Assembly: GCF_017833035.1 (NCBI RefSeq)
Contig: NZ_JAFIBM010000001.1
Span: 2,563,762-2,627,761, forward strand
Direction of reading: 5' to 3'
Length of the DNA stretch: 64,000 nucleotides
From: Frigoribacterium sp. PvP032
GTDB taxonomy: Bacteria > Actinomycetota > Actinomycetes > Actinomycetales > Microbacteriaceae
The position numbers were made by a program, and so were the translations under genes. Shown one piece after another: positions 2,758 to 63,450 of this stretch (its first letter is position 1; every line of letters begins with the position of its first letter). A model generated the notes under the pieces. The model was not told the DNA's origin. It did no database searches and was given only the letters and a program-made list of their open reading frames with translations.

Positions 2758-4155
2758 CTAGGGAGCAGTCGGCTCGGCCTCGGCGGCCGAGTCGTCGACG
2801 AGCGGGATGCTCACCGTGACGATGGTCGGTCCGCCTGCCGGGCTGGAGATGTCGAGGAACCCGCCCAGGCCGACGAGGCGTTCCTGCACCCCGGCGAGGC
2901 CGTGCCCGTCGCGGAGGCCCGCGCCGCCGTGTCCGTCGTCGGTGACGACGAGCTCGAGCAGGGTGCCCCTGCCGTCGGGCGCCGTCCGCGTGCGCAGCGC
3001 GAGGTCGGCCGAGCTCGCGGACGAGTGCTTGCCGGTGTTGGTCACGAGCTCGGAGGCGATGAAGTAGGCGTTCCGCTCGATGTCCGCGGGCAGCACGACG
3101 TGGGCGGGGACCCGGTTCAGGAGCGCCGTCGGTATGACGGCCCGGTCGACGAGGGACTCGAGCGCCGCGACCAGCCCCCGGTCGAGCAGCAGAGGAGGCG
3201 CGAAGCCGCGGGACAGGGCGCGCAGCTCCTCGAGGGCCTCGCGCGACTGGGCCCGCGCCTCCTCGATCAGGGCCTTGCCCTTCTCCGGGTCGGAGTCGAC
3301 GGCCCTGGCCGCCGCGGCGAGGTCCATCTGCAGCCGGACGAGGCGCTGCTGCGGCCCGTCGTGGATGTCGCGCTCCAGGCGCCGGAGGGCCGTGCCCTCG
3401 GCGGACAGCGCCGCGGTGCGGGAGATCTCGCGGTCGGCGAGCTCGACGGCGAGCTCGTCGCTGCGGAAGCCGCCGAGCATGGCCGCCGCGATCGCGTGGT
3501 GCATGACGACGAAGCCGTGCACGACGAAGGGCATCAGCAGCACGACGCCGGCGAGCACGACGGCCCCCAGGAGGAGGAGCAGCAGCCCGGCGCCGCCCCC
3601 GAAGACCGTGTGCAGGCCGTTGCCGCCGGGCACGCTCCCGACGACGACGCCGCCGAAGACGAACAGCAGGGCGGGGCCTGCGACCAGCAGCACGATGACG
3701 GTCGTCGTGAGGGCGGCCGCGGCCGGGAACACGACGAGGCCGTAGAGCAGGTAGAGCCAGTAGTGCGGGTTCGCGAACGCCGACAGCGCGCGGACCGCCC
3801 GGTTGTCGGAGCGGCCCCAGGTCGTGTTCGGCGTCCAGTCGACGGGCCGCACCGGCCGGTCGATCGCCCAGCGCAGGCGGATCACCTCGAAGGTCCCGAA
3901 CCAGCGCGCCAGCCACAGGCTCGCGAAGACCACGAGGGCGAGGAAGACGAACCCGACGACCGAGTTGTCGGCCTGGCCGAGCGAGCGGAAGAACAAGGTG
4001 GAGAGGCCGCCGATCACGACGACCAGCACGGCCGAGAGCGCGACGTAGCCGAGCTCGCGGGGCAGCGCACGCCAGCGACGCCCGTAGCCGCCGGGCGGGG
4101 CCGGCGGCGAGAGGTAGGGGTTCGTGGGGGCGCTGATGGTGCTCTCCTGGGTCAT
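2758..4155 (-). CDS. Membrane sensor histidine kinase (HisKA_3 type)
   Basis: Sensor kinase for the adjacent response regulator, 465 residues. A Pro-rich cytoplasmic start (1-30) is followed by several hydrophobic segments (about 37-55, 66-85, 133-170, 185-220) forming the membrane sensor. A dimerisation/phospho-acceptor helix has the HisKA_3 motif ERDIHDGPQQ (His265), and an HATPase domain shows the N-box SELVTNTGKH and G-box DDGHGGAGL. The chosen ATG at 4155 has GAGG just upstream; an ATG at 4191 in the same frame adds twelve unlikely residues. The stimulus is unknown; the sensor has no recognisable ligand-binding domain outside the membrane. Confidence 0.92.
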   Translation of the reverse strand: MTQESTISAPTNPYLSPPAPPGGYGRRWRALPRELGYVALSAVLVVVIGGLSTLFFRSLGQADNSVVGFVFLALVVFASLWLARWFGTFEVIRLRWAIDRPVRPVDWTPNTTWGRSDNRAVRALSAFANPHYWLYLLYGLVVFPAAAALTTTVIVLLVAGPALLFVFGGVVVGSVPGGNGLHTVFGGGAGLLLLLLGAVVLAGVVLLMPFVVHGFVVMHHAIAAAMLGGFRSDELAVELADREISRTAALSAEGTALRRLERDIHDGPQQRLVRLQMDLAAAARAVDSDPEKGKALIEEARAQSREALEELRALSRGFAPPLLLDRGLVAALESLVDRAVIPTALLNRVPAHVVLPADIERNAYFIASELVTNTGKHSSASSADLALRTRTAPDGRGTLLELVVTDDGHGGAGLRDGHGLAGVQERLVGLGGFLDISSPAGGPTIVTVSIPLVDDSAAEAEPTAP

Positions 4156-4337
4156 GCCTCGAGCCTCGCGGAGGCGCGGGCCAGGACCCATGGTGCCAGC
4201 GCCCGAGAGACTGGTGGGGTTATCCCCCGCACGGGGAGGTGAGGCCAGGCTGCCCTCGGTGAGCCGAGCCTCAGCTTGCTTGCGGAATTTCCTCAGCCCT
4301 CTACCGTGGGGTAGATCGTCTAGGAAAGGACACCGCC

Positions 4338-4829
4338 ATGACCGACGCCACCACCATCACCGTCCCCCAGGGTTCCGTCGACCCCGACGTCGCCGCCGGC
4401 GTCGCCCAGTTCCTCAGCCCGATCGTGACCGACCTCACGGCGCTGTCGGTCAACGGCAAGCAGGCGCACTGGCACGTCCGCGGCATCGCGTTCGTCGCCG
4501 TGCACGAGCTGATCGACGTGGTCGTCGACCACGCCCGCGAGTGGGCCGACCTCGCCGCGGAGCGCGTCGTCGCCCTCGGCCTGCCGGTCGACGCCCGCAT
4601 CGAGACGGTCGCCGCCAAGACCAGCATCCCGACGACCTCGCCCGGCTTCAACCAGATCGACCGCACGATCGCCGAGCTGGTCGCCCAGATCGACGCCTCG
4701 CTCGTCGCCGTCCGCACGGCCATCGACGAGCTCGGCGAGCTCGACGCGTCCAGCCAGGACGTGGCCATCGAGATCTCCCGTGGTCTCGAGAAGGACCGCT
4801 GGTTCCTCGCCGCGCACGTCGCCGGCTGA
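4338..4829 (+). CDS. dps: Dps-family ferritin-like DNA-protection protein
   Basis: Stress ferritin that oxidises ferrous iron with peroxide and stores it in a 12-subunit shell, protecting DNA. At 163 residues it has the usual length. The intersubunit ferroxidase signature is visible: KQAHWHVRG near residues 42-50, then HELIDVVVDHAREWADLAAER with the conserved His, Asp and Glu ligands. The N-terminal tail is short and not Lys-rich, so direct DNA binding is doubtful. The ribosome-binding site is GGAAAGGA before the ATG. It is monocistronic, with a strong terminator downstream, and divergent from the two-component genes. Confidence 0.94.
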   Translation: MTDATTITVPQGSVDPDVAAGVAQFLSPIVTDLTALSVNGKQAHWHVRGIAFVAVHELIDVVVDHAREWADLAAERVVALGLPVDARIETVAAKTSIPTTSPGFNQIDRTIAELVAQIDASLVAVRTAIDELGELDASSQDVAIEISRGLEKDRWFLAAHVAG

Positions 4830-4852
4830 GCCCGCCCCTCCTGACGAACGGA

Positions 4853-4880
4853 GGCCGTCGCCCCTCGGGGCGGCGGCCTT
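4853..4880 (+). terminator. Rho-independent-type terminator after dps
   Basis: Twelve-base-pair GC-rich hairpin with arms GGCCGTCGCCCC (4853-4864) and GGGGCGGCGGCC (4867-4878), one G-U wobble, followed by only two T. The arrangement fits the end of dps. Confidence 0.75.
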
Positions 4881-4912
4881 CGTCGTGCGCGGTCCCGTCC
4901 TGACTCGGACAC

Positions 4913-4939
4913 GGGGCCGGGGCCGGGGCCGGGGCCGGG
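4913..4939. repeat. GGGGCC hexanucleotide tandem repeat between convergent genes
   Basis: Four and a half perfect copies of GGGGCC fill the short space between the converging ends of dps and the amidohydrolase gene. Five G-runs of three or more on one strand make a G-quadruplex possible. It lies outside both reading frames. Simple-sequence slippage is the likeliest origin. Confidence 0.85.
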
Positions 4940-4943
4940 CACC

Positions 4944-6524
4944 CTAGAGGGCGCGGTGCGTGAACCTGCCTCCGAGCAGGGTCGCCGAGACGACCATCGC
5001 GCGCAGCCCGTGGTCCGTCGCGGTGAGCGGGTCGGCCTCCGTCACGACCAGGTCGGCCGCGGAGCCGATCTCGACGCTCGTCCGGCCGCCGGTCGACGCG
5101 GCGAGAGCCGTCCGGGCTGCCAGTCGCTGCTCCGGGTGCCACGGGTCGCGGCCGTCCCTGGCACGCCAGACGGCTGCCGCCATCGCCACCCAGGGGTCGA
5201 GCGGCGCGACCGGGGCGTCCGAGCCCAGCTGGAGGCGCACCCCTGCCTCGGCGAGGCTCCCCCAGGCGTACGAGCGCCCGGTGCGGCCCGCCCACAGCCG
5301 GTCGGCGACGTCGCGGTCGTCCATGGCGTGCTCGGGCTGGACGCTCGCCACGACGCCGAGCCGGGCGAAGCGGGCGACGTCGTCGGGGTCGAGCAGCTGC
5401 GCGTGCTCGATCGAGCCGGCGCAGCCGACCTCCTCGAGGGCGTCGAGGGCCGACGCGTTCGCCGCGTCGCCGATCGCGTGCACCGCGGGCACCAGGCCCG
5501 CCGAGGAGGCGCGTCTCAGGTAGGCGACGAGCGCCTCCTTCCCGTAGGTCGCCACGCCCCGCGCCGCGGGGTCGCCCTCCATGCCGACGTAGGCGTCCCG
5601 GCACCACGCGGTGCGGGTGCCGAGCGAGCCGTCGGTGATGATCTTGGCCGGCCCCATCTCGACGAGGCCGTGCGTGCCGGGGATCACGTCGCCGGTGCGC
5701 AGGCCGCGGTCGACGACCTCGTCGAGGTCGGCCGGGTAGACGCCGGCCCGCACGCGGAGGCACGTCGTGCCCGCCGCCACCCTGCGGGCCCAGCGGTCGA
5801 CCGAGAGGGTCATCTCGAGGTCGACGATCCCCACGACGCCTCTCGCGGCGGCGGCCTCGGCGGCCTCGCCCACCCACTCGTCGAGCTGGTCCTCCGAGAC
5901 GGCGCTGACCGCGGTGCTCACGGCGAAGGCGTCCGCCTCGCGCAGCAGGCCCGTCGGGTGGCCGGCGTGACCGTGGGCCGCGAGGGCCCGGGAGTCGAGC
6001 CAGACGGAGTGCAGGTCCTTGCTGACGAGCACGACGGGGACGTCGCCGGAGACGGCGTCGAGCAGGGCCCTGGTGGGCTCGTCGGCCCAGAGCGCGTCCT
6101 GGAACCCGTAGCCGATCAGGGGCTGCCCGGGCGCCGGGGGCTGCGAGCGGAGACGCTCCCCCACGAGCGACGCCGCCTCGGCGGCCGACCCGGCCGCCGA
6201 CACGTCCAGGCGACGACGCACGAGCGCCCACTGGTCCATGTGCACGTGGGAGTCCCAGAGGCCCGGCCCGAGCCACCGGCCGTCGAGGTCGACGACCTCG
6301 GCGGCCCCGCCGACCTCGGCGCCGTCGACGACCGCGAGCCCCCGGCCGATCTCGGCGACGACGCCGTCGCGCAGGAGGACGTCGACGCGATCGGCGTCGA
6401 CGGAGCTGTGGACGCCGGTGAGGCGGGCGTTCCTCAGGAGCACGGGGGGCGCCTCCTCGGGCCCGCTGCCGGTGCCGGCGCCCTGTCCGGAGGAGGTCCC
6501 GGCACTCTGCTGGCTGCTGCTCAT
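4944..6524 (-). CDS. Amidohydrolase family protein (YtcJ-like)
   Basis: Metal-dependent hydrolase of the amidohydrolase_3 group, 526 residues. After a low-complexity Ser/Gly N terminus come the small beta-sandwich domain and the TIM barrel with the metal-binding HxH motif (His93, His95 in WDSHVHMD). Later come the conserved EHAQLL segment and a C-terminal GSDAPVAPLDPW motif with the catalytic Asp. The family includes N-substituted formamide deformylases and many enzymes of unknown substrate. The ATG overlaps the stop of the PaiB-like gene by four bases (ATGA), so the two are translationally coupled. Confidence 0.88.
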   Translation of the reverse strand: MSSSQQSAGTSSGQGAGTGSGPEEAPPVLLRNARLTGVHSSVDADRVDVLLRDGVVAEIGRGLAVVDGAEVGGAAEVVDLDGRWLGPGLWDSHVHMDQWALVRRRLDVSAAGSAAEAASLVGERLRSQPPAPGQPLIGYGFQDALWADEPTRALLDAVSGDVPVVLVSKDLHSVWLDSRALAAHGHAGHPTGLLREADAFAVSTAVSAVSEDQLDEWVGEAAEAAAARGVVGIVDLEMTLSVDRWARRVAAGTTCLRVRAGVYPADLDEVVDRGLRTGDVIPGTHGLVEMGPAKIITDGSLGTRTAWCRDAYVGMEGDPAARGVATYGKEALVAYLRRASSAGLVPAVHAIGDAANASALDALEEVGCAGSIEHAQLLDPDDVARFARLGVVASVQPEHAMDDRDVADRLWAGRTGRSYAWGSLAEAGVRLQLGSDAPVAPLDPWVAMAAAVWRARDGRDPWHPEQRLAARTALAASTGGRTSVEIGSAADLVVTEADPLTATDHGLRAMVVSATLLGGRFTHRAL

Positions 6525-12006: not shown

Positions 12007-12060
12007 CCACGGGGCGCGGGCGTCCCTCGGGACAGCGCGCGCCTCCTGCGTCACCGTCGG

Positions 12061-15162: not shown

Positions 15163-15636
15163 CTAGCGACGTCGGAACGTCAGGGGCTCCTCGACGAACG
15201 GCGTCCAGGCGGCTCGCTCGTCGTCGGTGATCCGCCGTGGCGTGCCGGAGGCCGTGTCGACGAGGACGATCGAGGTCGACGCCCTCGTGTAGAGCACGGC
15301 CGGCTCGACCGCCGCGGGCGACCAGACCTCGTAGCAGACCTCGAGGCTGGCGCCCCCGAGACGGCCGATCCAGATCTGCACGTCGAGCGGCGCCCGCAGG
15401 TACGGCACGGGCACGAGGTACTCGAGCTCCTGACGGGCGATGAGCGTCATCGTCGCGGCGTCCGGCCGGCCGTCGAGCACGGCCGCGCCCGAGGTCTCGC
15501 CGACGGTGCCGTCCGAGACCCAGAACGCGTCGATGCGCGCCTCCTCGAGGAGGCGCAGCATCGACGCGTTGTTCACGTGCCGGTAGGCGTCCAGGTCGCT
15601 CCAGCGGACCCTCGTCGGCACGTGCAGGCGGGTCAT
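15163..15636 (-). CDS. Hotdog-fold thioesterase (4-hydroxybenzoyl-CoA thioesterase-like)
   Basis: 157 residues with the 4HBT signature RVRWSDLDAYRHVNNASMLRLLEEAR cut across residues 9-34, including the catalytic Asp in SDLD and the following HVNN. It probably hydrolyses a small or aromatic acyl-CoA; the substrate is not determined. Its ATG begins one base after the ettA stop, so the two genes form an operon. M. tuberculosis has a thioesterase-like gene (Rv2475c) close to its ettA homologue (Rv2477c), which suggests an old association. An inverted pair of the decamer CGCGCCTCCT lies inside the gene at 15536-15557. Confidence 0.9.
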   Translation of the reverse strand: MTRLHVPTRVRWSDLDAYRHVNNASMLRLLEEARIDAFWVSDGTVGETSGAAVLDGRPDAATMTLIARQELEYLVPVPYLRAPLDVQIWIGRLGGASLEVCYEVWSPAAVEPAVLYTRASTSIVLVDTASGTPRRITDDERAAWTPFVEEPLTFRRR

Positions 15637-17897: not shown

Positions 17898-18491
17898 TCA
17901 GAAAGGAGGCACGCCCACCCGGGCGACCGCGTCTGCGGGGTCGCCGTCGCCGGGCTCCTCCGCGGCGCCGGGCGACGCAGGGCCTCGCTCGTCGAGGGCG
18001 GGGCTGTCGTCAGCAGCCCAGCCGGTCGGGGCGGCGGGCGAGGAGGCGGGCGTCCCGACGCCGGGGGCGGTCGCGGCGTCGCCCGCCGCGCCTCCTGCGG
18101 CCGCGTCGGGACCGGCCGAAGGCGCGGCGGCGGTCGACGTCGACCGGACGAAGGCAGAGCGGCCCCAGCGCAGGTCGTGGCCGATCGCGTCCGCGTCGAC
18201 CTCGACGGTCGTGCCCGACTTGTCGCCGGCCTCCCACGCACGGACCCGCAGGCGACCGAGCACGACGACCCGCTCGCCCTTGTGGAGGCTCTGCCCCGCG
18301 TTGGCCCCGAGCGCTCGGAAGGCGGTGACGGTGTACCAGTTCGTGTCGCCGTCGACCCACTCGTCCTTGACGCGGTCGAAGCGCCGGTGGGTCGAGGCGA
18401 GCCGGAAGCTGGCGATGTCGAGGCCGGCCTCGGTGGTGACGACCCGAGGGTCCGTGGCGATGATCCCGGTGAGGGTGATGGTGTCTGTCAT
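17898..18491 (-). CDS. ssb: Single-stranded DNA-binding protein paralogue
   Basis: 197 residues: an N-terminal OB-fold (1-110) with SSB features (GIIATDPR, FRLAS, NWYTVTAFRALG, VVVLGRLRVR), then a long Ala/Gly/Pro-rich tail. The C-terminal tip reads VGVPPF; it keeps the terminal PF but lacks the acidic DDEIPF-type tip that recruits repair proteins. This and its place next to ettA match the second SSB (Rv2478c type) rather than the replication SSB, which normally lies with rpsF and rplI. Genes of this type are often tied to stress or competence; that is inference here. Confidence 0.9.
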   Translation of the reverse strand: MTDTITLTGIIATDPRVVTTEAGLDIASFRLASTHRRFDRVKDEWVDGDTNWYTVTAFRALGANAGQSLHKGERVVVLGRLRVRAWEAGDKSGTTVEVDADAIGHDLRWGRSAFVRSTSTAAAPSAGPDAAAGGAAGDAATAPGVGTPASSPAAPTGWAADDSPALDERGPASPGAAEEPGDGDPADAVARVGVPPF

Positions 18492-18604
18492 GCGGGGAGT
18501 CTCACGGGACCGAGCCGGTGCGCGGGCGTGCACCGCGCCTCCTTGTGGAGGGGGTGCCTCGCCCGTCGCGCCGGGGAGGGACGAGCATCGTCGCCCCTCG
18601 AGCC

Positions 18605-22370: not shown

Positions 22371-22410
22371 ACGAGGAGGCGCCGGGGAATGTTCCCCGGC
22401 GCCTCCTCGT
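22371..22410 (-). terminator. Very long perfect hairpin terminator
   Basis: Perfect 19-bp inverted repeat, ACGAGGAGGCGCCGGGGAA (22371-22389) and its complement (22392-22410), around a two-base spacer. It ends the 94-residue gene. The stem carries AGGAGGCGC, a near copy of the decamer that is over-represented across this window. Confidence 0.82.
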
Positions 22411-24586: not shown

Positions 24587-24633
24587 CCCGGCCCGCGCCT
24601 CCTCGATCACCAGACGAGGAGGTGCGGGCCGGG
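24587..24633 (+). terminator. Long hairpin terminator after the MFS gene
   Basis: Nineteen-base-pair stem with one G-U pair: CCCGGCCCGCGCCTCCTCG (24587-24605) and CGAGGAGGTGCGGGCCGGG (24615-24633), with a 9-nt loop. One arm contains an exact copy of the over-represented decamer CGCGCCTCCT. Confidence 0.82.
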
Positions 24634-26185: not shown

Positions 26186-26799
26186 CCCGCCGAGCCGTCG
26201 GCGCGTTCCCCGATCGAGTCGCCGAGCCTGACGTCCACGACGACGTCGGCCAGGCCGCGTGGGTCCTCGGCCGCGAGGTGGCGCTCCTCCTGCTCGGCCC
26301 AGACGTCCCACCACGGCTCGTAGGTCGCCCCGTCCCGGCGCAGCGCGCGGGCTCGCCGGGTCGAGTCGTCGAGCTCCAGCCAGACACGCAGCGTCGCGAG
26401 GGCCGAGGAGGCGCGGGTCAGCGCCCCGGCGCCCTCGACGACCACCGAGACGGCCGGGTCGAGCGTCCGCCGCTCCCCCGGCACGCCATGCTCCCAGTCC
26501 CACGTGGTCCACCCCGGGTCCGCCGCCGCGAGGACGAACGACTCGACGATCCGCGATGCGGCCTCGAGCCCGTGCCAGCCCGGGTAGACGTCGTCGAGGT
26601 GGACGAGCTGCACCGGCCCGAGGCGGTCGACCGGCCAGGCAGCGACCAGGCGGCGAGCCAGCGTGGTCTTGCCCGAGCCGGAGCGGCCGTCGATCAGCAC
26701 GATGACGCGCGACCGGTCGACCCGCGCCTCCTGCGCCCGGCACAGCAGGTCGACGACGACGTCAGGAGACCGTCGACCAGGTGACCGTCCGTCACGCAA
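26182..26799 (-). CDS. P-loop NTPase, uridine/pantothenate-kinase-like
   Basis: 205 residues with a Walker A loop GRSGSGKTTLARRL (about residues 38-51), an acidic site in VHLDDVYPGW that matches the substrate/metal-binding DD of uridine kinase-like enzymes, and a late Arg-rich lid (DSTRRARALRRDG). It probably phosphorylates a small molecule. The TTG start overlaps the end of the ykoC-like gene by eight bases, placing it last in the thiamine-precursor transporter operon, so a substrate linked to that import (for example a vitamin precursor) is an attractive guess. The exact start is uncertain. Confidence 0.78.
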   Translation of the reverse strand: MRDGRSPGRRSPDVVVDLLCRAQEARVDRSRVIVLIDGRSGSGKTTLARRLVAAWPVDRLGPVQLVHLDDVYPGWHGLEAASRIVESFVLAAADPGWTTWDWEHGVPGERRTLDPAVSVVVEGAGALTRASSALATLRVWLELDDSTRRARALRRDGATYEPWWDVWAEQEERHLAAEDPRGLADVVVDVRLGDSIGERADGSAG

Positions 26800-27586: not shown

Positions 27587-29061
27587 CGTGCAGCCTCGGC
27601 GACGACAGGTCGTTCGAGCACGAGGACGTCGTCGGCCAGGGCCTCGACGAACTCGGCGTCGTGCGTCACGGCCACGATGCTGCGTCCCTCGTCGACGAGC
27701 CCCGCCAGGAGGGCGACGAGCTCCCGCCAGGTGCGCGCGTCCTGCCCGAAGGTCGGCTCGTCGAGCACGAGGAGGCGCGGCCGGGAGGCGAGGACGGTCG
27801 CGACCGACAGGCGCCGCTTCTCCCCTCCCGACAGCGTGAACGGGTTGGCACCGGCGAGGTGGTCGAGCCGGAGGCGCGCCAGGAGCTCGTCGACGCGCTC
27901 GGCGACCTGCGCGGCCGGCTCGCCGAGCGCCTCCGGCCCGACCGCCAGCTCGCGCCGCACGGTCGGGGTGAGGAACTGGTGCTCCGGGTCCTGGAACACC
28001 GTGCCGACGCGGGTCAGCAGCTCGCGCGAACGCCAGCGGACGGGCACGCTGCCGGCTCCGGCAGCGAGCTCGGGCGTGGCGTGCAGCTCGCCCGCGACGG
28101 GGGCGAGCAGACCGGCGAGGGTCAGGGCGAGCGTCGACTTGCCCGCGCCGTTCGCGCCCGTGACGGCCAGCGTGCGGGAGTCGTGGACGGTCAAGTCGAC
28201 GCCAGAGGCGACGGCACGGCCCCGCGGGCCGCGGTGGCCGACGGCCAGCCCGGCTGCCTCGAGCAGCGGCCCCCGCGAGGAGGCGCGGTGTCGGACGGGC
28301 GGCTCGGGCACGACCCCGGGGACCCACACCCCCGCCTCCGTGAGCCGACCTCGCTGCCGGTCGAGCACCTCCTCGGGAGCCCCGTCCGCGAGCACGCCGC
28401 CGTCCGCGGCGAGCACGACGACGCGGTCGACGACGGGCAGCCAGACGGAGACGCGGTGCTCGACCACGACGAGCGTCGCCCCGGTCCGCTCGGCGACCCG
28501 GGCGACGGCGTCGCGCACCTCGACGACGCCGCCGGGGTCGAGGTTCGCCGTCGGCTCGTCGAGCAGCACGAGCCCCGGGCGCATGGCCAGGGCGCCGGCG
28601 AGCGCGAGGCGCTGCTTCTGCCCGCCGCTGAGCTGGGCGGTCGGCCACGAGCGCGGCAGGTCGAGCCCGACCGCGTCGAGGGCGTCGTCGACACGGCGCC
28701 AGGTCTCGCCGCGCGGCACTCCGATGTTCTCGCAGCCGAAGGCCACGTCGTCGCCGACGCGGGCGAGCACGACCTGCGAGTCGGGATCCTGCAGCACCAG
28801 GCCGACGCGGCCGCGCTGCTCGGCCGGCGGCCGCCCGTCGACGAGCAGCTCGCCGCGGGCGTCGCCCTCGTCGTCGCCGCCGAGCACGCCGGCGAGCCCG
28901 GCGAGCAGCGTCGACTTGCCGGCCCCCGAGGCACCGAGCAGCAGCACGCGCTCGCCCGGCTCGACGACGAGGTCGAGCTCGGACACGGCCGGGCGGAGAC
29001 GGCCGGCGTGCCGCCACCCCCAGCCGCGGGCGTCGACCCTGGCGCCGGAGGCGGTGGTCAC
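27583..29061 (-). CDS. ykoD: Duplicated ECF ABC ATPase, YkoD-like
   Basis: 492 residues with two complete ATP-binding cassettes in one chain, as in YkoD/EcfA fusions. The first Walker A is GASGAGKSTL with signature LSGGQKQRLAL; the second is GANGAGKSTL with signature LSGGEKRRLSV. Each has a Walker B ending in LLDEPT or LVLDEPT. It powers the ECF importer with the membrane proteins on either side. The start is a GTG 19 bases after the S-component stop with no clear ribosome-binding site, so it relies on coupling. Two copies of the decamer AGGAGGCGCG lie in the gene. Confidence 0.9.
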   Translation of the reverse strand: MTTASGARVDARGWGWRHAGRLRPAVSELDLVVEPGERVLLLGASGAGKSTLLAGLAGVLGGDDEGDARGELLVDGRPPAEQRGRVGLVLQDPDSQVVLARVGDDVAFGCENIGVPRGETWRRVDDALDAVGLDLPRSWPTAQLSGGQKQRLALAGALAMRPGLVLLDEPTANLDPGGVVEVRDAVARVAERTGATLVVVEHRVSVWLPVVDRVVVLAADGGVLADGAPEEVLDRQRGRLTEAGVWVPGVVPEPPVRHRASSRGPLLEAAGLAVGHRGPRGRAVASGVDLTVHDSRTLAVTGANGAGKSTLALTLAGLLAPVAGELHATPELAAGAGSVPVRWRSRELLTRVGTVFQDPEHQFLTPTVRRELAVGPEALGEPAAQVAERVDELLARLRLDHLAGANPFTLSGGEKRRLSVATVLASRPRLLVLDEPTFGQDARTWRELVALLAGLVDEGRSIVAVTHDAEFVEALADDVLVLERPVVAEAAR

Positions 29062-29917: not shown

Positions 29918-30016
29918 ATCAGGAAGAGAGCGCTCGCGCCTCCTGAGCTGTGCACGGTTCAGGACGATCGGCACCTCCGTTGCGGGGATCAGGCGCGATC
30001 TTCCTGAATGAGGAGG
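29918..30016. repeat. 99-nt structured intergenic repeat, copy A
   Basis: Aligns without gaps to 63526-63624; I count about 70 identical bases of 99, in solid conserved blocks. It contains five TCAGGA/TCCTGA half-sites in alternating orientation and a central GTGCAC palindrome, and ends TTCCTGAATGAGGAGG. In copy A an exact decamer CGCGCCTCCT (29935-29944) sits inside. It lies just 3' of the minus-strand epimerase gene. Confidence 0.85.
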
Positions 30017-30980: not shown

Positions 30981-31130
30981 GACGAGGCCTCGACGAGGAG
31001 GCGCGGGCGGGGGTCGAGGACAGCTGCCGTCGTCGGCAGCGCTGCGGTCGTCATGCCCCGACGCTAGGCGCGGCGGCCCCGGTGCGCCCGCTGCCCGTAG
31101 GCTGACGTGGTCCACGACCCGGAGGTCCGA

Positions 31131-35849: not shown

Positions 35850-37607
35850 ATGAGCGTCTACGACGTCTGGGCACCCACCGCGACCACCGTGCAGCTGCAC
35901 CTCGACGGCGACGTGCTGCCGCTCGAGCACGAGGCCTCCACCGGGTGGTGGCGCGCGGCCGCCGACCTCGACCGCTCCCCCGGCCACCGCTACGGGTTCC
36001 TCGTCGACGACGGCGAGACGCCGCTGCCCGACCCGCGGTCGCGGCGGCAGCCGGACGGGGTGCACGGCCTGAGCGAGACCTGGGACGGCGACTCCTTCGA
36101 CTGGACCGACGCCTCCTGGACGGGTCGTCAGCTCGCCGGCGCGGTGATCTACGAGCTGCACGTCGGCACCTTCACGCCGGACGGCACGCTCGACTCGGCG
36201 ATCGAGAAGCTGCCGCACCTGGTCGAGCTGGGCGTCGACCTCGTCGAGCTGCTGCCGGTCAACGGCGTGAACGGCCGCTGGAACTGGGGCTACGACGGGG
36301 TCGACTGGTTCACGGTCACCGACAACTACGGCGGCCCCGACGCCTACCAGCGCTTCGTCGACGCCGCGCACGCCGCCGGCCTCGGCGTCGTGCAGGACGT
36401 CGTCTACAACCACCTCGGCCCCTCGGGCAACTACCTGCCCGTGTTCGGCCCGTACCTGTCGAGCAAGCACGCGAACACGTGGGGCGACAACGTCAACCTC
36501 GACGACGAGGGCTCGCACGAGGTGCGCGAGTTCATCCTCGACAACGCGCTGATGTGGTTCGAGCGGTTCCACGTCGACGCCCTGCGGCTCGACGCCGTGC
36601 ACGCGCTCGTCGACGACAGCCCCGTGCACCTGCTGCAGGAGTTGGGCGAGCGCACCGCCGCCCTCAGCGCCCACCTGAGCCGCCCGCTGACGCTGATCGC
36701 CGAGAGCGACCTCAACGACGCACGGCTCGTCACGCCGCGTGACGGCGGCGGCTTCGGTCCCGACCACCGGCAGGGCTACGGGCTCGACGGGCAGTGGAGC
36801 GACGACTTCCACCACGCGCTGCACGTCGCCCTGACCGGCGAGACGAACAGCTGGTACGCCGACTTCGCGTCGCTCGACTCGCTCGCGAAGGTCGTCACGA
36901 AGGGGTTCTTCCACGACGGCACCTGGTCGTCGTTCCGCGAGGCCGACCACGGCCACCCGGTCGACGTGGAGCACATGCCCGGCTGGCGTCTCGTCGTCGC
37001 GAACCAGAACCACGACCAGATCGGCAACCGGGCCGTGGGCGACCGCCTCGCGGCCACCCTCGACGACGGGCAGCTGCAGATCGCGGCCACACTGACCCTG
37101 ACCTCGCCGTACACGCCGATGCTGTTCATGGGCGAGGAGTGGGGCGCGTCGACCCCGTGGCAGTTCTTCACGTCGCACCCGGAGAAGGAGCTCGGCGAGG
37201 CGACCGCGAAGGGCCGCATCGCCGAGTTCGCGAAGTCGGGCTGGGACGAGTCGGTCGTGCCCGACCCGCAGGACCCGCAGACGTTCGAGGACTCGAAGCT
37301 GGACTGGTCGGAGCTCGGGCGCGGGCGCCACGCCCTGCTGCTCGATGCCTACCAGCAGCTCACGGCGCTGCGCCGGGCCGAGCCCGAGCTGACCGACCCG
37401 CGCCTCGGGCTCACCTCAGTCGAGCACGACGCCGAGGCCGGCTGGTTCGTGATGACCAGGGGCACGATCCGGGTGGCCGTCAACTTCGGGACGCAGGAGG
37501 CGCGGCCTGGCGTGCGCGCCTCCTCCGTCCTGTTCGCCAGTGACGACTCGATCGCGGCCGGCGCCGAGCTGGTGCTGCCGCCGCACTCTGTCGCGGTGGT
37601 CCGCTGA
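35850..37607 (+). CDS. treZ: Malto-oligosyltrehalose trehalohydrolase
   Basis: Releases trehalose from the product of TreY; 585 residues. It has an N-terminal beta domain ([19 protein letters not shown]), then the GH13 barrel with [27 protein letters not shown] (nucleophile) and LIAESDLND (acid). Region IV is [13 protein letters not shown]. The ATG has GAGGAGACC upstream. A 136-base gap separates it from treY and includes a TACCGT box near 35752, so it may have its own promoter as well as read-through. It completes the TreYZ route for making the compatible solute trehalose. Confidence 0.96.
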
Positions 37608-38708: not shown

Positions 38709-39425
38709 TCAGCTCGTCGGCACGAGGTCGGCGAACACGATGAGGTTGTCGACGTAGTGCCCGGTCGAGCGGTCGAACGTGCCGTCGCAGGTGATCAGCC
38801 GCAGGCTCGGCGTCGGCGTCGAGCCGTAGACGTCGCTGGTCGGGAACGTCGCCTTGGGCGTCCGCTCGCTGCCCGTGACGCGGAAGGTCTCGACCGTGCC
38901 GGTGGACAGGGTCACCTGGATCTCGTCGCCGACCGCCAGCTTCGCCAGGTCGACGAAGACGGCAGGTCCGCTGCCCGAGTCCACGTGGCCGGCGATGACG
39001 GCCGGTCCGACGGCGCCGGGCACGGTGCCGTCGCGGTACCAGCCCGCCGAGTCCCACGCCTGGGGCGGGTCGAGCTCGCCGGCGGCTCCGAGGCCGAGGT
39101 CCTCGAGTCCCGAGTCGACCCCGATGGCCGGGATCTGCACGCGCTCGGGCGTCGCCCCCGCAGGAGGCGCGGTGTACGACTGCGCCGCCGGGTCCTGGAA
39201 CGAGCCAGCGGCTCCGCTGCCGGGGTCGGCACCCGTCGAGGCGGACGACGTCGGCTCGGCGGTGGCCGCCGTCGAGGCCGGACCCTGCGCGTCCGCGCCG
39301 GCCCCGCCTCCTCCCGGCTGCGCCGCCACGGCGGCGACGGTCGCGCCCCCGGCGAGCAGCAGCACGGCCGCGCCGAGCGCGATCGCGGCACGACGGTGCG
39401 ACGAGACGAACTGCGAGACGCTCAT
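38709..39425 (-). CDS. Class F sortase
   Basis: Membrane-anchored transpeptidase of the sortase fold, 238 residues. It has an N-terminal membrane helix (12-35), a Ser/Thr/Ala-rich spacer (40-90) and the catalytic domain. His147 is in IAGHVDS, Cys213 in LITCDG, and Arg219 follows. Class F enzymes of actinobacteria lack defined substrates in most species. No protein in this locus ends in a plain LPxTG signal. The ATG overlaps the GH8 stop by four bases, so the sortase and glycanase are made together. It could attach a surface protein or act on another nucleophile. Confidence 0.92.
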   Translation of the reverse strand: MSVSQFVSSHRRAAIALGAAVLLLAGGATVAAVAAQPGGGGAGADAQGPASTAATAEPTSSASTGADPGSGAAGSFQDPAAQSYTAPPAGATPERVQIPAIGVDSGLEDLGLGAAGELDPPQAWDSAGWYRDGTVPGAVGPAVIAGHVDSGSGPAVFVDLAKLAVGDEIQVTLSTGTVETFRVTGSERTPKATFPTSDVYGSTPTPSLRLITCDGTFDRSTGHYVDNLIVFADLVPTS

Positions 39426-48921: not shown

Positions 48922-49057
48922 GCACCCGACACTAGAGGACACGCCGGGGCGCCCGGTAGGTACGCTGACGGCGGACCTCGCATGCCGCGGCCTTCCCTGG
49001 GAAGGCTCGCGCGCCTCCTGCGTTGTCACCGTCACACCTGCTCCGAGGAGGACCCGC

Positions 49058-51426: not shown

Positions 51427-52032
51427 CTACAGCACCGCCCAGCGGCCGAGCGGCCAGAAGACGACCGTCGCGCGGCCGACGACGTGGTCGAGCGGCACGA
51501 AGCCCTCGTAGGGGCCGGTCACGTGCGACCGCGAGTCCGCTGAGCGCTCGCGGTCGTCGCCCATCACCCAGAGCGCGCCGTCGGGCACGGTGACGTCGAA
51601 CGGCGCCAGCGACGCCGGGTCGCCCTCCGGCACGTCCAGGTACGGCTCGTCGAGCGGCTCGCCGTTCACGAGCAGGCGCCCCGCGGAGTCACAGCACGAG
51701 ACGGTGTCGCCGGGGAGGCCGATGACGCGCTTGACGAGGTCGTCGCCCTCGGCCGGGCCCAGCCAGCCGCCCGGGTCCTCGAAGACGACGACGTCGCCGC
51801 GGTGCAGGTCCATGACGTCGGGCACGAGCTCGTTCACGAGGATGCGGTCGCCGATCAGCAGGGTCTGCTCCATCGACGCCGACGGGATGAAGAACGACCG
51901 CACGAGGAAAGTCCGCACGCCCCACGACACCAGCAGCGCGACGAGCACGATCACGACGAGGTCGCGCAGCCAGCGCAGCCCGCCCGCCCGCCGGGTCGCA
52001 GGAGGCGCGGCGGCGTCAGCAGGATCGGTCAC
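51427..52032 (-). CDS. lepB: Signal peptidase I
   Basis: Membrane protease that cleaves Sec and Tat signal peptides, 201 residues. A single N-terminal membrane helix (22-40) is followed by box B with catalytic Ser53 in FIPSASMEQTL, box D with the general-base Lys101 in KRVIGLPGD, and box E GDDRERSADSRSH. One transmembrane segment is the Gram-positive type. The start is a GTG. It is convergent with the acyl-CoA ligase gene 20 bases away. Another lepB copy probably exists near rplS, as in most relatives. Confidence 0.95.
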   Translation of the reverse strand: MTDPADAAAPPATRRAGGLRWLRDLVVIVLVALLVSWGVRTFLVRSFFIPSASMEQTLLIGDRILVNELVPDVMDLHRGDVVVFEDPGGWLGPAEGDDLVKRVIGLPGDTVSCCDSAGRLLVNGEPLDEPYLDVPEGDPASLAPFDVTVPDGALWVMGDDRERSADSRSHVTGPYEGFVPLDHVVGRATVVFWPLGRWAVL

Positions 52033-53067: not shown

Positions 53068-53112
53068 CACCGCGCCTCCTCGTCCTGGTGTCGAGACGAG
53101 GAGGCGCGGGTG
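53068..53112 (-). terminator. Hairpin terminator made of two inverted decamers
   Basis: Perfect 14-bp stem CGCGCCTCCTCGTC (53071-53084) / GACGAGGAGGCGCG (53095-53108), extended by CAC/GTG with one bulge and with a 10-nt loop. Both arms are exact copies of the over-represented decamer. It ends the SDR gene. Confidence 0.82.
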
Positions 53113-53129: not shown

Positions 53130-53948
53130 TCAGTTGCCGTGCGCCTCCTCGGCGACGGGCTGCCACTCCTCCCAGAGCGCGAGGCGCGACTCGTAGTCCT
53201 TCTTCGCGATGCCGAGCGGCGCCTTGCCGAAGAAGACGCGGAGGGGCGGCTCGTCGGCGTCGACGACCTTGAGGATCGCCGTGCGGGTGGCCGTGGGGTC
53301 GCCGGGGTCGGCGGCCGACGGGCGCTTGGACGCCGCTTCGCGCACCTCGGCGTAGGCCTCGTTCTCGTCGCTGCGCGAGGCGGACGGGCCAGACCAGTCG
53401 GTCGAGAAGCCGCCGGGCTCGACGAGCGTGACCTTGATCCCGAAGCCGGCGACCTCCTGGGACAGCGACTGGCTGATGCCCTCGAGGGCCCACTTCGAGG
53501 CGTGGTAGATGCCGACCGTCGGGAACGCGCTGATGCCGCCGATGCTCGAGACCTGCACGATGTGGCCTGAGCCCTGCTCGCGCATGATCGGCAGTGCCGC
53601 CTGCGTGACCCAGAGGGCGCCGAAGAGGTTCGTCTCGAGCTGGCCGCGCGCCTCCTCCTCGGTGATCTCCTCGACCATGCCGAAGTGGCCGTAGCCGGCG
53701 TTGTTGACGACGACGTCGAGACGGCCGAAGTGCTCGGCGGCCTGCTGCACGGCGGCCACGTCGGCGGCACGGTCGGTGACGTCGAGCTGGAGGGGCAGGA
53801 ACGTGTCGGGATACTGCTCGACGAGCGCGTCGACCGCCTCCAGCTTCCTGGCCGTGCCGGCGACGCTGTCGCCGCGCTCGAGGGCCGCCTCGGCCCACTC
53901 TCGGCCGAAGCCCTTCGACGCGCCGGTGATGAACCAGACCTTGCTCAC
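53130..53948 (-). CDS. Short-chain dehydrogenase/reductase
   Basis: 272-residue classical SDR. The cofactor loop is TGASKGFGREW (9-19), with NNAGYG after the fourth strand, the catalytic Ser in SSIGG and Tyr/Lys in YHASKWALEG. The basic and acidic residues after the first strand do not settle NADH versus NADPH. The GTG start has GAGAGGAA upstream. It is divergent from the second acyl-CoA ligase, with 136 bases between. Substrate unknown; relatives act on a wide range of alcohols and ketones. Confidence 0.92.
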   Translation of the reverse strand: MSKVWFITGASKGFGREWAEAALERGDSVAGTARKLEAVDALVEQYPDTFLPLQLDVTDRAADVAAVQQAAEHFGRLDVVVNNAGYGHFGMVEEITEEEARGQLETNLFGALWVTQAALPIMREQGSGHIVQVSSIGGISAFPTVGIYHASKWALEGISQSLSQEVAGFGIKVTLVEPGGFSTDWSGPSASRSDENEAYAEVREAASKRPSAADPGDPTATRTAILKVVDADEPPLRVFFGKAPLGIAKKDYESRLALWEEWQPVAEEAHGN

Positions 53949-57681: not shown

Positions 57682-59144
57682 TGGGTCGCCCCTCCGTCGG
57701 GCCCCAGCCGGGGCAGGTGGTCGATCCCGAACTCGTGGCGCAGCGCGCTCAGCGCTGCGTAGGCGCCTCCCATGCCGTGCACCGACGGGCCGGGGGGCAC
57801 GGACGAGGAGGCGAGGTACGTCCCGGGGACCGGCGTGCGCCACGGGTCGGTCGAGACCACCGGACGGGCGATCAGCTGGCGCATCGTGGGCGCGCCGGAG
57901 GCGATGTCTCCCCCGACGTAGTTCGGGTCGTGCTCCTCGAGGTCGGACGCCGTGTGGGCGCGCGAGGCGAGCACGAGGTCGCGGAAGCCGGGAGCGAACC
58001 GCTCGATCTGCTGCGTGACGGCCTCGGTCATGTCGACGGTGCTGCCGTTCGGCACGTGGGCGTAGGTCCAGAGGGCGTGCTGCCCGGCGGGCGCCCGGGT
58101 GTCGTCGACCACGCCGGCCTGCACCGCGAGCACGAACGGCTCTGCGGGGTGCACGCCGCGGGCGACGTCGCGCTCTGCGCGGGCGACGGCGGCGCGGTCG
58201 CCGCCGAGGTGCACGGTCGGCGTGCGGCGGAGCTCCTCCGCCTGCCAGGGCACGGGACCGCTGAGGGCGAAGTCCACCTTGGAGGCGCCTCCCCCGTACC
58301 GGAACCGCTCGAGCCGGCGTCGGTACCCGGCCGGCATCTCGTCACCCGCGATCGCGATCAGCTGCTTCGGCGTCACGTCGAGCAGGCGCACGGACGCGTC
58401 GAGCTGGCGGAGGCTCGTGACCTCCACGCCGGTCTCGATCACCCCCCCGTGTGCTGTCAGGTCGTCGGCGAGCGCGTCGGCGATCGCCTGGCTGCCGCCG
58501 CGGGGCACGGCCCAGCCGACGCCGTGGCCGTGCACCGCGAGGGCGAGGCCGGCAGCGGACGCGCTGAGGCTCGGCATCGGGCGGATCGCGTGGGCCATCA
58601 CGCCTGCCAGCAGTGCCCGCGCCTCCTCGGTGCGGAGCCCGGCGTCCCACCACGGGCCGGCCTGGTGCAGGATGCGCAGGCCGAACTCGAGGGTCGTCCC
58701 GAGATGGCGCGGCACCTGGAGGATCGGCGAGAGGGTGAACTGCGACAGCTCGGGCTCGAGGTCGACCAGGCGGGAGAACATCCGGTGCCAGGTGGGCCCG
58801 TCGACGCCGAGGCCGTCGACGGTGCGGTCGAGGTCGCGGTACGCGACGCCCGCCGTGCCGCCGTCGAGCGGGTGGCCGTACGAGACCTCCGGCACGATCA
58901 TCTCGACCCGCTGCTGCAGCCCCCAGCGACGGAAGAACCCGGAGGCCATCGCCATGGGGTGCACGGCAGAGCAGATGTCGTGACGGAACCCCGGCAGGGT
59001 CAGCTCGGCGGTGCGGGTGCCGCCGCCGATGGTGTCGGCCCGCTCGAGCAGCTGCACGCGCAGCCCTGCCCTGGCGAGGACGACCGCCGCGGAGAGGCCG
59101 TTCGGCCCCGCCCCGACGACGACCGCGTCGAACGCCGCCGTCAC
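57678..59144 (-). CDS. FAD-dependent oxidoreductase, phytoene-desaturase-like
   Basis: 488 residues with an N-terminal dinucleotide-binding motif GAGPNGLSAAVVLARAG and the family's next segment LLERADTIGGGTRT. The C-terminal FAD motif is YLASSSVPPGPSVHGMGGAYAAL. It belongs to the NAD(P)/FAD-dependent oxidoreductases related to phytoene dehydrogenase and the mammalian PYROXD2 type, not to a carotenoid cluster. The GTG overlaps the stop of the SDR gene. No carotenoid synthesis gene is near, so a desaturase or oxidase on another lipid is as likely. Confidence 0.9.
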   Translation of the reverse strand: MTAAFDAVVVGAGPNGLSAAVVLARAGLRVQLLERADTIGGGTRTAELTLPGFRHDICSAVHPMAMASGFFRRWGLQQRVEMIVPEVSYGHPLDGGTAGVAYRDLDRTVDGLGVDGPTWHRMFSRLVDLEPELSQFTLSPILQVPRHLGTTLEFGLRILHQAGPWWDAGLRTEEARALLAGVMAHAIRPMPSLSASAAGLALAVHGHGVGWAVPRGGSQAIADALADDLTAHGGVIETGVEVTSLRQLDASVRLLDVTPKQLIAIAGDEMPAGYRRRLERFRYGGGASKVDFALSGPVPWQAEELRRTPTVHLGGDRAAVARAERDVARGVHPAEPFVLAVQAGVVDDTRAPAGQHALWTYAHVPNGSTVDMTEAVTQQIERFAPGFRDLVLASRAHTASDLEEHDPNYVGGDIASGAPTMRQLIARPVVSTDPWRTPVPGTYLASSSVPPGPSVHGMGGAYAALSALRHEFGIDHLPRLGPDGGATQ

Positions 59145-61829: not shown

Positions 61830-62065
61830 GGGTCCCTGGGTCGGTTCGTGGCCCGTGAGGGCTCGGATCGGCTCGTCGAGCATGGCAGGGACGGCTGGGG
61901 ACAGCCCCGGACTCTGCACATCGTGCACGACCGCCCCGCACCTGCACGCGGGGACACGACCGGACGAGGAGTGTCCGTGTCGGGGGTGCACTGTAGGTTG
62001 GCTCAGACCGCTCCGCTCGTCCGAGTCTCGGTGCGGCACGGACGACAGGAACGAACGGGTACACC

Positions 62066-62389
62066 ATGGGATCGTTGATCTACGGCACGTCGAGCATCGA
62101 GATCGAGTTCGACGACAGGACGCTCGAGCACCTCCAGATCGTGATCGCCACCAAGCTGCGACGACGCGAGTCGTTCTTCTTCTCGTGGCGCGACACGCTC
62201 AAGGTCGGCGACGGCCGCAGCAGCATCTGGCTCGACGCCGGCATCCCGCTGTACTTCAAGTACTCGGGCGGCCGTGTGCCGACGATCAGCCGCGAGTGGC
62301 TGGCGGAGCTGACCGCCTCCTCCAACAGCTCGTCCGGGCTGGTGCTCACCGACGAGCCGAGCCTCGACAACTCGGCCAAGCGCAAGTAG
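62066..62389 (+). CDS. Small actinobacterial protein (DUF7882-like)
   Basis: 107 residues, opening MGSLIYGTSSIEIEFDDRTLEHLQIVIATKL, with SFFFSWRD and GDGRSSIWLDAGIPLYFKYSGG further on. Microbacteriaceae have several copies of such small proteins, often mislabelled ATP-dependent DNA ligase; there is no ligase motif here. I believe they are now called DUF7882. The C terminus is disordered. A leader of about 70 bases follows a TAGGTT box near 61993, with GGAACGA as weak ribosome-binding site. The 236-base gap before the gene holds only small palindromes (TGCACATCGTGCA). Confidence 0.8.
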   Translation: MGSLIYGTSSIEIEFDDRTLEHLQIVIATKLRRRESFFFSWRDTLKVGDGRSSIWLDAGIPLYFKYSGGRVPTISREWLAELTASSNSSSGLVLTDEPSLDNSAKRK

Positions 62390-62422
62390 CGGCCGCCGGC
62401 CGCTGGGCCGCTGGCTGGTCCC

Positions 62423-62803
62423 TCAGCGACGCGAGCCGCGTGCGCGACGGCCACGAAGCCTCGCGAGCGCTCGCCAGCCCAGCAAGAAGGTCCCGAGCAC
62501 CACGACCGTGACGATCACGAAGCTCACCGCGGTGCCCTGACCGCTGATCACCCTCAGCACCATGCCGACGACCACCGTGGCAGGCCACACGAGCAGGCCG
62601 GAAGTCAGGGCGGGCAGCGACCGCCCTCGCACCAGCACCAGCGCCCACCCCACGACGAGACCGGCGGCGAAGGGCCACAGCGTGGTCAGCACCCCGACGA
62701 GCGCGGAACCCTCGTCGTGGCTGCGGCGCCCGATCAGGACGAACGCGACCACGAGGACGAGATCGGCGACGAAGGCCCACCACGGCGACCTGCGCGAGGT
62801 CAT
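62423..62803 (-). CDS. DUF3054 membrane protein
   Basis: 126 residues, four membrane helices, with the DUF3054 pattern: DLVLVVAFVLIGRRSHDEG, TLWPFAAGLVVGW, GLLVWPATVVVGMVLRVISGQGTAVSFVIVT. The C terminus is short and strongly basic. DUF3054 proteins are widespread in actinobacteria and unstudied. The start overlaps the stop of the 216-residue gene by four bases, so they are cotranscribed. Confidence 0.9.
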   Translation of the reverse strand: MTSRRSPWWAFVADLVLVVAFVLIGRRSHDEGSALVGVLTTLWPFAAGLVVGWALVLVRGRSLPALTSGLLVWPATVVVGMVLRVISGQGTAVSFVIVTVVVLGTFLLGWRALARLRGRRARGSRR

Positions 62804-63450
62804 CGGGGCTGCTCCAGGGTGCGCGACAGCTCCGCGAGGAGGTCGTCGACCTGGGGCTCGACGAGACGCGCCAGCGCCTCGGCGATCCGCTCGCGATGGC
62901 CGGCGACGGCGAAGCAGAGCGCCGTGCCGACCGCTTGCGCGTGCTCGTCGGCGAGGGCCAGCTCGCGACGGAGGGCCTGCTTGGCCTGCTCGGTGAACTC
63001 CGGCTCGGCCGCCGCCTCCTCGTCGGTCCCGCCCGCAGGAGGCGCGTCCTCGGCTGCGAGGCCCGCCAGCGTGAACAGGAACGGCTGGGTCGGGTCGGGC
63101 TCGGGGTCGACGTCCAGGCCGTCGAACTCCGGCGCCAGGTCGGCCTCAGGTCGGTACCCGTCGGGCTCGCCCGCGGCGGCGCGTCGCAGCTCGCGGTCGA
63201 CGAGGGGCAGGTTGCGGGTCGTGTAGGTGTCGACCTCGGCGTCGACGATGTGCCGGAGGCGGTTGAGCAGCGCGTGCTGGACGGCGTGCGGCACGTCGTG
63301 GTCGAGCCCCGCGGCGATCGCGACCGGGGAGCCGAAGCAGGTGCGGCAGACCCGGGTGCGGCCGCGGGCGGTGCCGATCCGCCAGCGCGGCAGCCAGCGC
63401 AGCCAGGCGTCGACCGCCCCGCGCACCTGCCCCTCGATCGAATCGGCCAT
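62800..63450 (-). CDS. Conserved hypothetical protein
   Basis: 216 residues, no named domain. The N terminus has two cysteines in RVCRTCFG (CxxC). Mainly helical segments follow, then an acidic, Pro/Ala-rich loop (about 120-145) and a C-terminal helical part (EQAKQALRRELALADEHAQAVG). No signal or membrane helix is visible. The ATG has a TAGATT box 6 nt upstream, so the transcript is leaderless, and the gene is coupled to DUF3054. Function unknown. Confidence 0.78.
   Translation of the reverse strand: MADSIEGQVRGAVDAWLRWLPRWRIGTARGRTRVCRTCFGSPVAIAAGLDHDVPHAVQHALLNRLRHIVDAEVDTYTTRNLPLVDRELRRAAAGEPDGYRPEADLAPEFDGLDVDPEPDPTQPFLFTLAGLAAEDAPPAGGTDEEAAAEPEFTEQAKQALRRELALADEHAQAVGTALCFAVAGHRERIAEALARLVEPQVDDLLAELSRTLEQPR

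Follow-up and report, generated by a model that had tools for sequence, protein, structure and literature searches.

A 64,000-nucleotide stretch of the Frigoribacterium sp. PvP032 chromosome (family Microbacteriaceae; contig NZ_JAFIBM010000001.1, positions 2,563,762 to 2,627,761; hereafter the window, meaning the whole stretch of DNA analysed) raises the question of why one ten-letter word, AGGAGGCGCG, recurs along it in genes and between them, partly in facing pairs past gene ends. A preliminary description had pointed to this word and had offered an uptake, Chi-like, segregation or methylation signal as explanations. Here, we follow the word through the source genome, the genus and the family, and weigh these and further explanations. 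On balance, we consider the motif a probable DNA-uptake-sequence-like signal, by which DNA from the genus would be taken up preferentially during natural transformation. The broader proposal, that DNA uptake in the Microbacteriaceae, a Gram-positive actinobacterial family, is sequence-specific and follows related dialects (about half of the genera having CGGATGCCG, one genus GCAGGA[GT]CC, Frigoribacterium [ACG]GGAGGCGCGG and Curtobacterium-like genomes palindromes with GGAGGCGCG), is held more tentatively, at close to an even chance.

Excess over chance and codon models

The window contains exactly 25 exact copies of AGGAGGCGCG, 11 on the plus and 14 on the minus strand (Table 1), while 100 dinucleotide shuffles of the window gave 1.23 copies on average and never more than 4. 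The count thus agrees with that made by eye in the preliminary description, of whose coordinates 23 of 25 were exact and two had to be moved (5514 to 5504-5513 and 63036 to 63037-63046); the set flanking letters that it mentioned are also there, with CG (11) or GC (8) directly before 19 of the 25 copies. Across the source genome, a single contig of 3.33 Mb, 458 + 494 = 952 copies were found, compared with 23 + 15 = 38 for the reversed-pattern control.

To place the copies relative to genes, a 464-kb sample was used, consisting of the window and 20 spaced 20-kb stretches of the source genome. Gene boundaries in this sample are approximate, because genes were called by our own codon-usage script. 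Out of 151 copies, 93 lie in 434 called genes, 56 are intergenic and 2 run across gene edges, which bears out the earlier statement that the word occurs both in genes and between them. The genic copies are symmetric in orientation (48 sense, 45 antisense) and fill all six orientation and frame classes, the commonest readings being EEAR (18), RASS (13), AGGA and PRLL.

The lead of EEAR and RASS among these readings would suit a by-product of mutation bias, of a GC-rich codon preference or of Glu-Ala-Arg and Arg-Ala-Ser runs. However, synonymous shuffles within genes led us to expect 9.3 + 6.9 copies and codon-pair resampling 11.8 + 9.3, against the 48 + 45 seen, so that codon models, with 16-21 copies expected in all, account for only about one in five of the 93 found in genes. 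Further, the density is highest in intergenic DNA, at 0.96 per kb compared with 0.23 per kb in genes, a fourfold difference, and Markov models of order 2-4 expect 0.8-3.2 intergenic copies where 56 were seen. Loci of approximately 20 kb from other genera of similar GC content (L030, L077, L091) hold 0-1 copies. The shuffle and Markov expectations together with the intergenic density rule out codon usage, peptide runs and Markov composition as the cause of the excess, and we regard the chance of a mere by-product as practically negligible. Neither of the two outcomes named in advance as speaking against a signal, a model that predicts the count and a motif absent between genes, was found. A Shine-Dalgarno role was also rejected, given the symmetric orientation (48 sense/45 antisense; tandem gaps 15 same/17 opposite). 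As a separate observation, one copy (L008:838-847) abuts a called start codon (AGGAGGCGCGATG) and could double as a ribosome-binding site.

Shape of the word and its distribution in the genus and family

Substitution counts in the source genome show GGAGG.G (positions 2-6 and 8) to be nearly invariant, with A, then C or G, and rarely T as the first base, and with tolerant last bases. Genome G403 has GGAGGCGC as an almost fixed block, and G260 allows A, C or G as the first base. AGGAGGCGCG is therefore the local variant of a core, GGAGGCGCG, which V (rarely T) precedes and which G most often follows. The core is present in 1457 copies in the source genome (control 192), 1733 in G260 (255), 2180 in G357 (112) and 2305 in G399 (102). 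The flanks of separate AGGAGGCGCG copies are weakly alike.

Among 398 family genomes, all 10 tested genomes of the genus carry 513-1422 copies of the 10-mer. In the other 388, the highest count is 216 (G055, control 75) and most are near the control, with a small excess in a few, for example 52 compared with 14 in G008. All nine genus genomes tested for the 9-mer core are enriched as well; three of them are shared with the 10-mer set and the remaining six were covered by the 9-mer only, and altogether all 16 of 16 Frigoribacterium genomes are enriched for one or the other. The form VGGAGGCGCGG has 815-1540 copies in 8 of 8 genus genomes of one draw. In genus g32, the same form is enriched two- to seven-fold in 7 genomes out of 9, the other 2 not being enriched. 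In G055 it stands at 329 against a control of 123; that this genome had recently received the motif was considered and set aside, its excess being roughly two- to three-fold and its top words mixed.

Genus g32 is probably Curtobacterium, because GACGGGAGGC, the longer word of its genome G257, is common to all 14 named Curtobacterium loci examined; elsewhere, it was found twice in a Labedella locus (L049) and once in a Rathayibacter locus (L077). In G257 and G031, many core copies lie within intergenic palindromes such as CGGACGGGAGGCGCG...CGCGCCTCCCGTCCG, and in the genes of G031 the core is in about two-fold excess (12 seen, 5.6 expected). Curtobacterium-like genomes feature many such intergenic palindromes, approximately 44 bp long, in which the outer arms, CGGACGGGAGGCGCG, are constant and the inner arms vary but are self-complementary (Table 1).

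For one gene of the window, the seven nearest relatives are Frigoribacterium at 82-97% identity, followed by Frondihabitans at 70-73%. When 20 kb of the window were aligned with seven named Frigoribacterium loci (eight species with the source), the facing pair at 53071/53099 was intact in all eight, with flanks and loop that hardly align, and the copy at 52000 was exact in seven although its flanks hardly align either. Of the genic copies, those at 53647 and 58618 are each exact in two of the eight species and that at 63037 in three. Additionally, 80 kb around comEC (60 kb for G260) were compared with five relatives, in comparisons that share copies and are not independent: own copies are exact in 11/16, 4/11, 7/15, 11/16 and 2/10 cases, and neighbouring 10-mers at 0.45, 0.13, 0.33, 0.51 and 0.16 in the same five relatives. 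Pooled, 35 of 68 copy-by-genome comparisons are exact, compared with about 23 predicted from the flanking 10-mers.

Polarity, pairing and hairpins

No replication polarity of AGGAGGCGCG was found: over 36 assumed origins, 74-96 of 170 sampled copies are on the leading strand, and in G403, with four origins assumed, the figure is 52-69 of 121. This bears on recombination or segregation signals (Chi; the FtsK-orienting polar sequences and FtsK recognition sequences, KOPS/FRS; the architecture-imparting sequences, AIMS), which the high copy number and the G-rich word would suit. Neither the leading-strand bias of Chi nor the strong polarity of KOPS/FRS towards dif was seen over these assumed origins, the position of dif not having been located. 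The Chi-like and segregation options of the preliminary description are therefore disfavoured, and a signal of this class is highly improbable.

Neighbouring copies lie within 120 bases of each other in 13 cases among the 151 copies, compared with 5.8 expected at random; seven of these close pairs are inverted and six are same-strand, five of the latter at a spacing of 23-24 bases. Small intergenic same-strand arrays with this spacing, about two helix turns, were seen at L004:6406-6505, L001:11895-11927, L003:10072-10105 and L016:11883-11916.

Three hairpins of the window begin about 19-35 bases past stop codons by our own gene calls. As the preliminary description had it, two copies face each other at 53071-53108, forming a perfect 15-bp stem (53070-53084 with 53095-53109) around a 10-base loop; near-copies build the hairpin at 22371-22410, which has a perfect 18-bp stem and a 4-base loop made of AGGAGGCGCC, one base off AGGAGGCGCG; and one copy forms an arm at 24587-24633, where an exact copy at 24594-24603(-) and a near-copy make a 19-bp stem with one mismatch. 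The placement of these structures in terminators stands as far as position past gene ends is concerned and does not extend to a T-tract. Because no T-tract was seen after the three hairpins in the sequences inspected, we infer terminators here from position and structure. As a general intrinsic terminator stem, the motif was rejected, since GGAGGCG occurs in only about one tenth of intergenic hairpins (14/146 in our own sample, 6/88 in G403 and 5/55 in G260).

Type IV pilus and competence genes

The check for com and pilus genes proposed in the preliminary description gave a type IV pilus operon, ComEA and ComEC in the source genome. The operon lies at 3.25-3.26 Mb. Two of its ATPases match T2SSE and were assigned as PilB and PilT by position, and Pfam supports PilC, one pilin, PilD, PilM and PilO. 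No Pfam match was obtained for the gene in the PilN position or for a 596-aa gene, and a 462-aa gene has a weak CarboxypepD_reg match alone. The Pfam scan excluded a 198-aa gene, and three further genes are thus pilin-like by eye only. ComEA (HHH_3, SLBB) adjoins ComEC at 1.797-1.801 Mb. ComEC is present in 16 of 16 genus genomes and in 58 of 60 overall. Across the 110 family genomes, PilM was found in 57, one of them below the cut-off, and PilC in all of these except that one (56).

Words of other genera

A different word, CGGATGCCG, is over-represented in many other genera of the family. Over 110 family genomes it ranges from no excess to 2929 copies against 109, up to about 30-fold over the reversed control, and it reaches at least five times this control in 45 of the 85 genera, each represented by one genome. 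Frigoribacterium (two genomes in this draw; 150 compared with 121) and several reduced genomes show no excess of it. In genes of three pilus-bearing genomes, codon-pair models give a 2.3- to 4.9-fold excess on either strand, and between the genes of the same genomes 5, 5 and 1 copies were seen where 0.3-0.4 were expected. In genes of named Agromyces and Microbacterium loci, which are homologous regions and not independent, the excess is 1.9- to 3.5-fold.

The excess of CGGATGCCG is modestly associated with the type IV pilus. By genus (85, one genome each), its median is 7.2 with the pilus and 3.1 without (p=0.0013), and by genome (110) the values are 7.0 and 2.9 (p=0.00017; p=0.022 for genomes of at least 2.5 Mb). 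With the other dialects added, a choice that favours the uptake reading, the association by genus among genomes of at least 2.5 Mb has p=0.043.

Genome G087 was sampled as a pilus-bearing genome without CGGATGCCG; of nine such genomes outside the genus of the source genome, it alone was sampled for a different word, and here GCAGGA[GT]CC stands out (1780 compared with 292 genome-wide). This word is enriched 1.8- to 6.1-fold in 7 of 7 tested genomes of G087's genus and is not enriched in 6 other genomes tested outside it. The genus (g5; L225-L228) is perhaps Frondihabitans, because the named Frondihabitans locus L028 has 8 copies in 22 kb; the locus L029 has none. In 100-kb samples of the pilus-less genomes G034, G014 and G017, no word is as strong as those of Frigoribacterium, G080 or G084. 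The words of the genera have in common GGA[GT], then GC or CC, which suggests that they may be homologous. Two more words were noticed in 100-kb samples: CGGATCCGC in the pilus-less G034 (L205-L209; 56 copies, 20 expected) and CAGGGACCG in the pilus-bearing G071 (L190-L194; 14 copies, 1.1 expected).

Weighing the explanations

If the word is an uptake signal, a surface pilin of the type IV pilus, or ComEA, would bind it in free DNA, pilus retraction would bring this DNA to ComEA, and ComEC would import one strand, which RecA would recombine. DNA bearing the word would be taken up and recombined more often. The word would thereby accumulate and be kept on the two strands alike, with the greatest freedom in intergenic DNA but also within genes, at sites where the encoded protein can accommodate it. 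Genera would carry different but similar words as dialects. That the word is read during uptake, that one of these proteins is its reader, that Frigoribacterium is transformable and that the words of different genera are homologous is what we infer. The tested sequence features match uptake signals except in their spread along the genome, and they do not fit Chi, KOPS, transposase-driven repeats, terminator stems or codon bias. The uptake option of the preliminary description is partly supported, being in keeping with the symmetry, the genic and intergenic spread, some hairpin pairs, the genus specificity, the similar words of other genera and, in the source genome, the pilus and com genes; even spacing, which was looked for, was not found, the copies being clustered instead.

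Several results weigh against an uptake signal. The clustering is seen in the coefficient of variation of the gaps, which is 1.21 compared with 0.82-1.18 at random (first 100 plus-strand copies), and of the 7 inverted pairs no more than 3 are entirely intergenic. PilM is found in 13 of the 16 Frigoribacterium genomes, and the motif carriers G298, G330 and G398 lack it. ComEC does not discriminate, because it is nearly universal. The association of CGGATGCCG with the pilus is weak by genus among genomes of at least 2.5 Mb (p=0.11), and its statistics ignore phylogeny above genus. Further, 14 of 40 pilus-less genera have CGGATGCCG at five times or more, some at 28-31 times. Recent loss of the pilus or a different reader could account for these genera and for the carriers without PilM. 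The pilus-less G017 has 187 copies of CGGATGCCG compared with 21, and the top words of the pilus-less G034 and G017 are about level with those of the pilus-bearing G076 and G071 in 100-kb samples. The conservation of copies between species is only moderate in the comEC region. In G257, the core is found in intergenic palindromes, and its 8 copies in genes do not exceed the 10.8 expected, a pattern that points to a role in hairpins there.

The main rival that remains is a general chromosomal DNA-binding protein, such as a nucleoid organiser, a condensin loader or a silencer, that needs non-polar sites across the genome. The non-polar, genic and intergenic spread of the motif at the level of double-stranded DNA, its sharp core with a degenerate rim and its presence in genomes without PilM would all suit such a protein, as would its sparseness in one block of lower GC (2 exact copies in 40 kb, about 11 expected; the block was chosen as the largest gap). 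However, a binding protein predicts neither the hairpin pairs past gene ends nor the change of word between genera, and the modest association between the family word and the pilus would have to be a coincidence. We consider this explanation unlikely.

Repetitive extragenic palindromic elements and bacterial interspersed mosaic elements (REP/BIME), which go with REP-associated tyrosine transposases (RAYT), are short repeats that partly form inverted pairs past gene ends. A dispersed palindromic element of this kind, or a conserved hairpin or terminator arm with the single copies as remnants, would explain the palindromes with constant outer arms in Curtobacterium-like genomes as well as the inverted pairs and the 23-24-base arrays of Frigoribacterium. 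Unlike such elements, the Frigoribacterium motif is mostly single and genic, with 93 of 151 copies in genes and in all frames, and it has weakly similar flanks and a small share in intergenic hairpins. A RAYT-driven element was rejected, as the Y1 transposase occurs in 0 of 16 genus genomes. Such an origin is thus distinctly unlikely. The methylation option of the preliminary description, a methyltransferase target, would be in line with a short and sharp word, but its spread through the genus would need a genus-wide enzyme, and the target sites of methyltransferases are not known to be generally enriched by a factor of ten or more; we give it a very small chance.

Relation to known systems

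In the Neisseriaceae, the DNA uptake sequence (DUS) works with a type IV pilus and its minor pilin ComP. An uptake signal in Frigoribacterium can be compared with this system and with others. Frye et al. (2013, PMC3630211) describe the DUS as a short word with about 900 to 5900 copies per genome and with dialects that differ between related taxa, including a dialect with a one-base insertion, wadDUS. According to a further article (PMC2346458), uptake sequences also occur in genes, and inverted pairs are discussed there as hairpins. The Frigoribacterium motif resembles the DUS in being a short word of similar copy number with dialects, genic copies and inverted hairpin pairs. It differs in its actinobacterial host, in an unrelated GC-rich word that is known here from sequence alone, and in the absence of pilM from some carriers.

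The uptake signal sequence (USS) of the Pasteurellaceae is genic and intergenic, without a general genomic orientation bias and with more than one word in the family (PMC2346458; see also PMC12616744). The first of these sources also mentions an orientation bias of uptake sequences within genes and an apparently random spread of the USS over the genome, a feature that we take as typical and not as defining. Like the USS, the Frigoribacterium motif is genic and intergenic without general orientation bias, in a family with several words. Unlike the USS, it is an unrelated word with a genic orientation of 48:45 and with clustered copies.

Campylobacter jejuni reportedly recognises kin DNA in a methylation-dependent manner at the first step of uptake (PMC8468864), and the likeness lies in this early recognition of kin DNA. 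This recognition depends on methylated DNA, whereas the Frigoribacterium motif has been followed here purely as a string of bases. The highly iterated palindrome HIP1 of cyanobacteria is a very abundant short palindromic word throughout chromosomes, and the likeness lies in the abundance of a short chromosomal word, the difference in that AGGAGGCGCG is not palindromic.

In the open-licence PubMed Central literature, preprints excluded, no uptake sequences were found for Frigoribacterium or Microbacteriaceae. If the family-wide proposal of uptake dialects is true, uptake signals would have arisen independently a third time, and for the first time in monoderm bacteria. The reader protein could then be sought by pairing words with pilins over a large number of genera, and genetic tools might become accessible in genera that have been little studied. 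If uptake were refuted, a genus word of approximately 1000 copies and the similar words of the family would still be unexplained by the other chromosomal signals tested.

Features of the window and related palindromes

Table 1 Copies of AGGAGGCGCG and hairpins in the window (window positions), and palindromes in G257 (locus positions)
Feature	Position	Strand	Context
AGGAGGCGCG	3193..3202	+	antisense in called gene 2758-4155(-)
AGGAGGCGCG	3254..3263	-	sense (EEAR) in called gene 2758-4155(-); inverted pair with 3193
AGGAGGCGCG	5504..5513	+	antisense (RASS) in called gene 4944-6443(-)
AGGAGGCGCG	12038..12047	-	intergenic; 31 bases past stop of 9466-12006(+)
AGGAGGCGCG	15536..15545	-	sense in called gene 15163-15636(-)
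AGGAGGCGCG	18087..18096	-	sense (AGGA) in called gene 17898-18491(-)
AGGAGGCGCG	18534..18543	-	intergenic
hairpin	22371..22410		35 bases past stop of called gene 22446-22730(-)
hairpin	24587..24633		19 bases past stop of 23296-24567(+)
AGGAGGCGCG	24594..24603	-	intergenic; arm of hairpin 24587..24633
AGGAGGCGCG	26406..26415	+	antisense in called gene 26182-26700(-)
AGGAGGCGCG	26723..26732	-	intergenic
AGGAGGCGCG	27770..27779	+	antisense in called gene 27583-29061(-)
AGGAGGCGCG	28278..28287	+	antisense in called gene 27583-29061(-)
AGGAGGCGCG	29935..29944	-	intergenic
AGGAGGCGCG	30616..30625	-	sense in called gene 30021-30980(-)
AGGAGGCGCG	30996..31005	+	intergenic, divergent genes on either side
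AGGAGGCGCG	37495..37504	+	sense in called gene 35850-37607(+); inverted pair with 37515
AGGAGGCGCG	37515..37524	-	antisense in called gene 35850-37607(+); inverted pair with 37495
AGGAGGCGCG	39162..39171	+	antisense in called gene 38709-39425(-)
AGGAGGCGCG	49010..49019	-	intergenic, divergent genes on either side; exact in 2/8 aligned species
AGGAGGCGCG	52000..52009	+	intergenic; exact in 7/8 Frigoribacterium species, flanks diverged
hairpin	53070..53109		two facing AGGAGGCGCG copies; about 20 bases past stop of called gene 53130-53948(-)
AGGAGGCGCG	53071..53080	-	left arm of hairpin 53070..53109; exact in 8/8 species
AGGAGGCGCG	53099..53108	+	right arm of hairpin 53070..53109; exact in 8/8 species
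AGGAGGCGCG	53647..53656	-	sense in called gene 53130-53948(-); exact in 2/8 species
AGGAGGCGCG	58618..58627	-	sense in called gene 57678-59144(-); exact in 2/8 species
AGGAGGCGCG	63037..63046	+	antisense in called gene 62800-63450(-); exact in 3/8 species
~44-bp palindromes	L142:10265-10308, L144:11869-11912, L144:16282-16325		others in L141-L149 (G257)

The motif-poor block of lower GC (0.66-0.69) comprises L229 and L230 (G000:C1:552001-572000 and 579001-599000), picked as the largest gap among the listed plus-strand copies; judged by eye, without a family search, its genes appear to serve transport and sugar metabolism.

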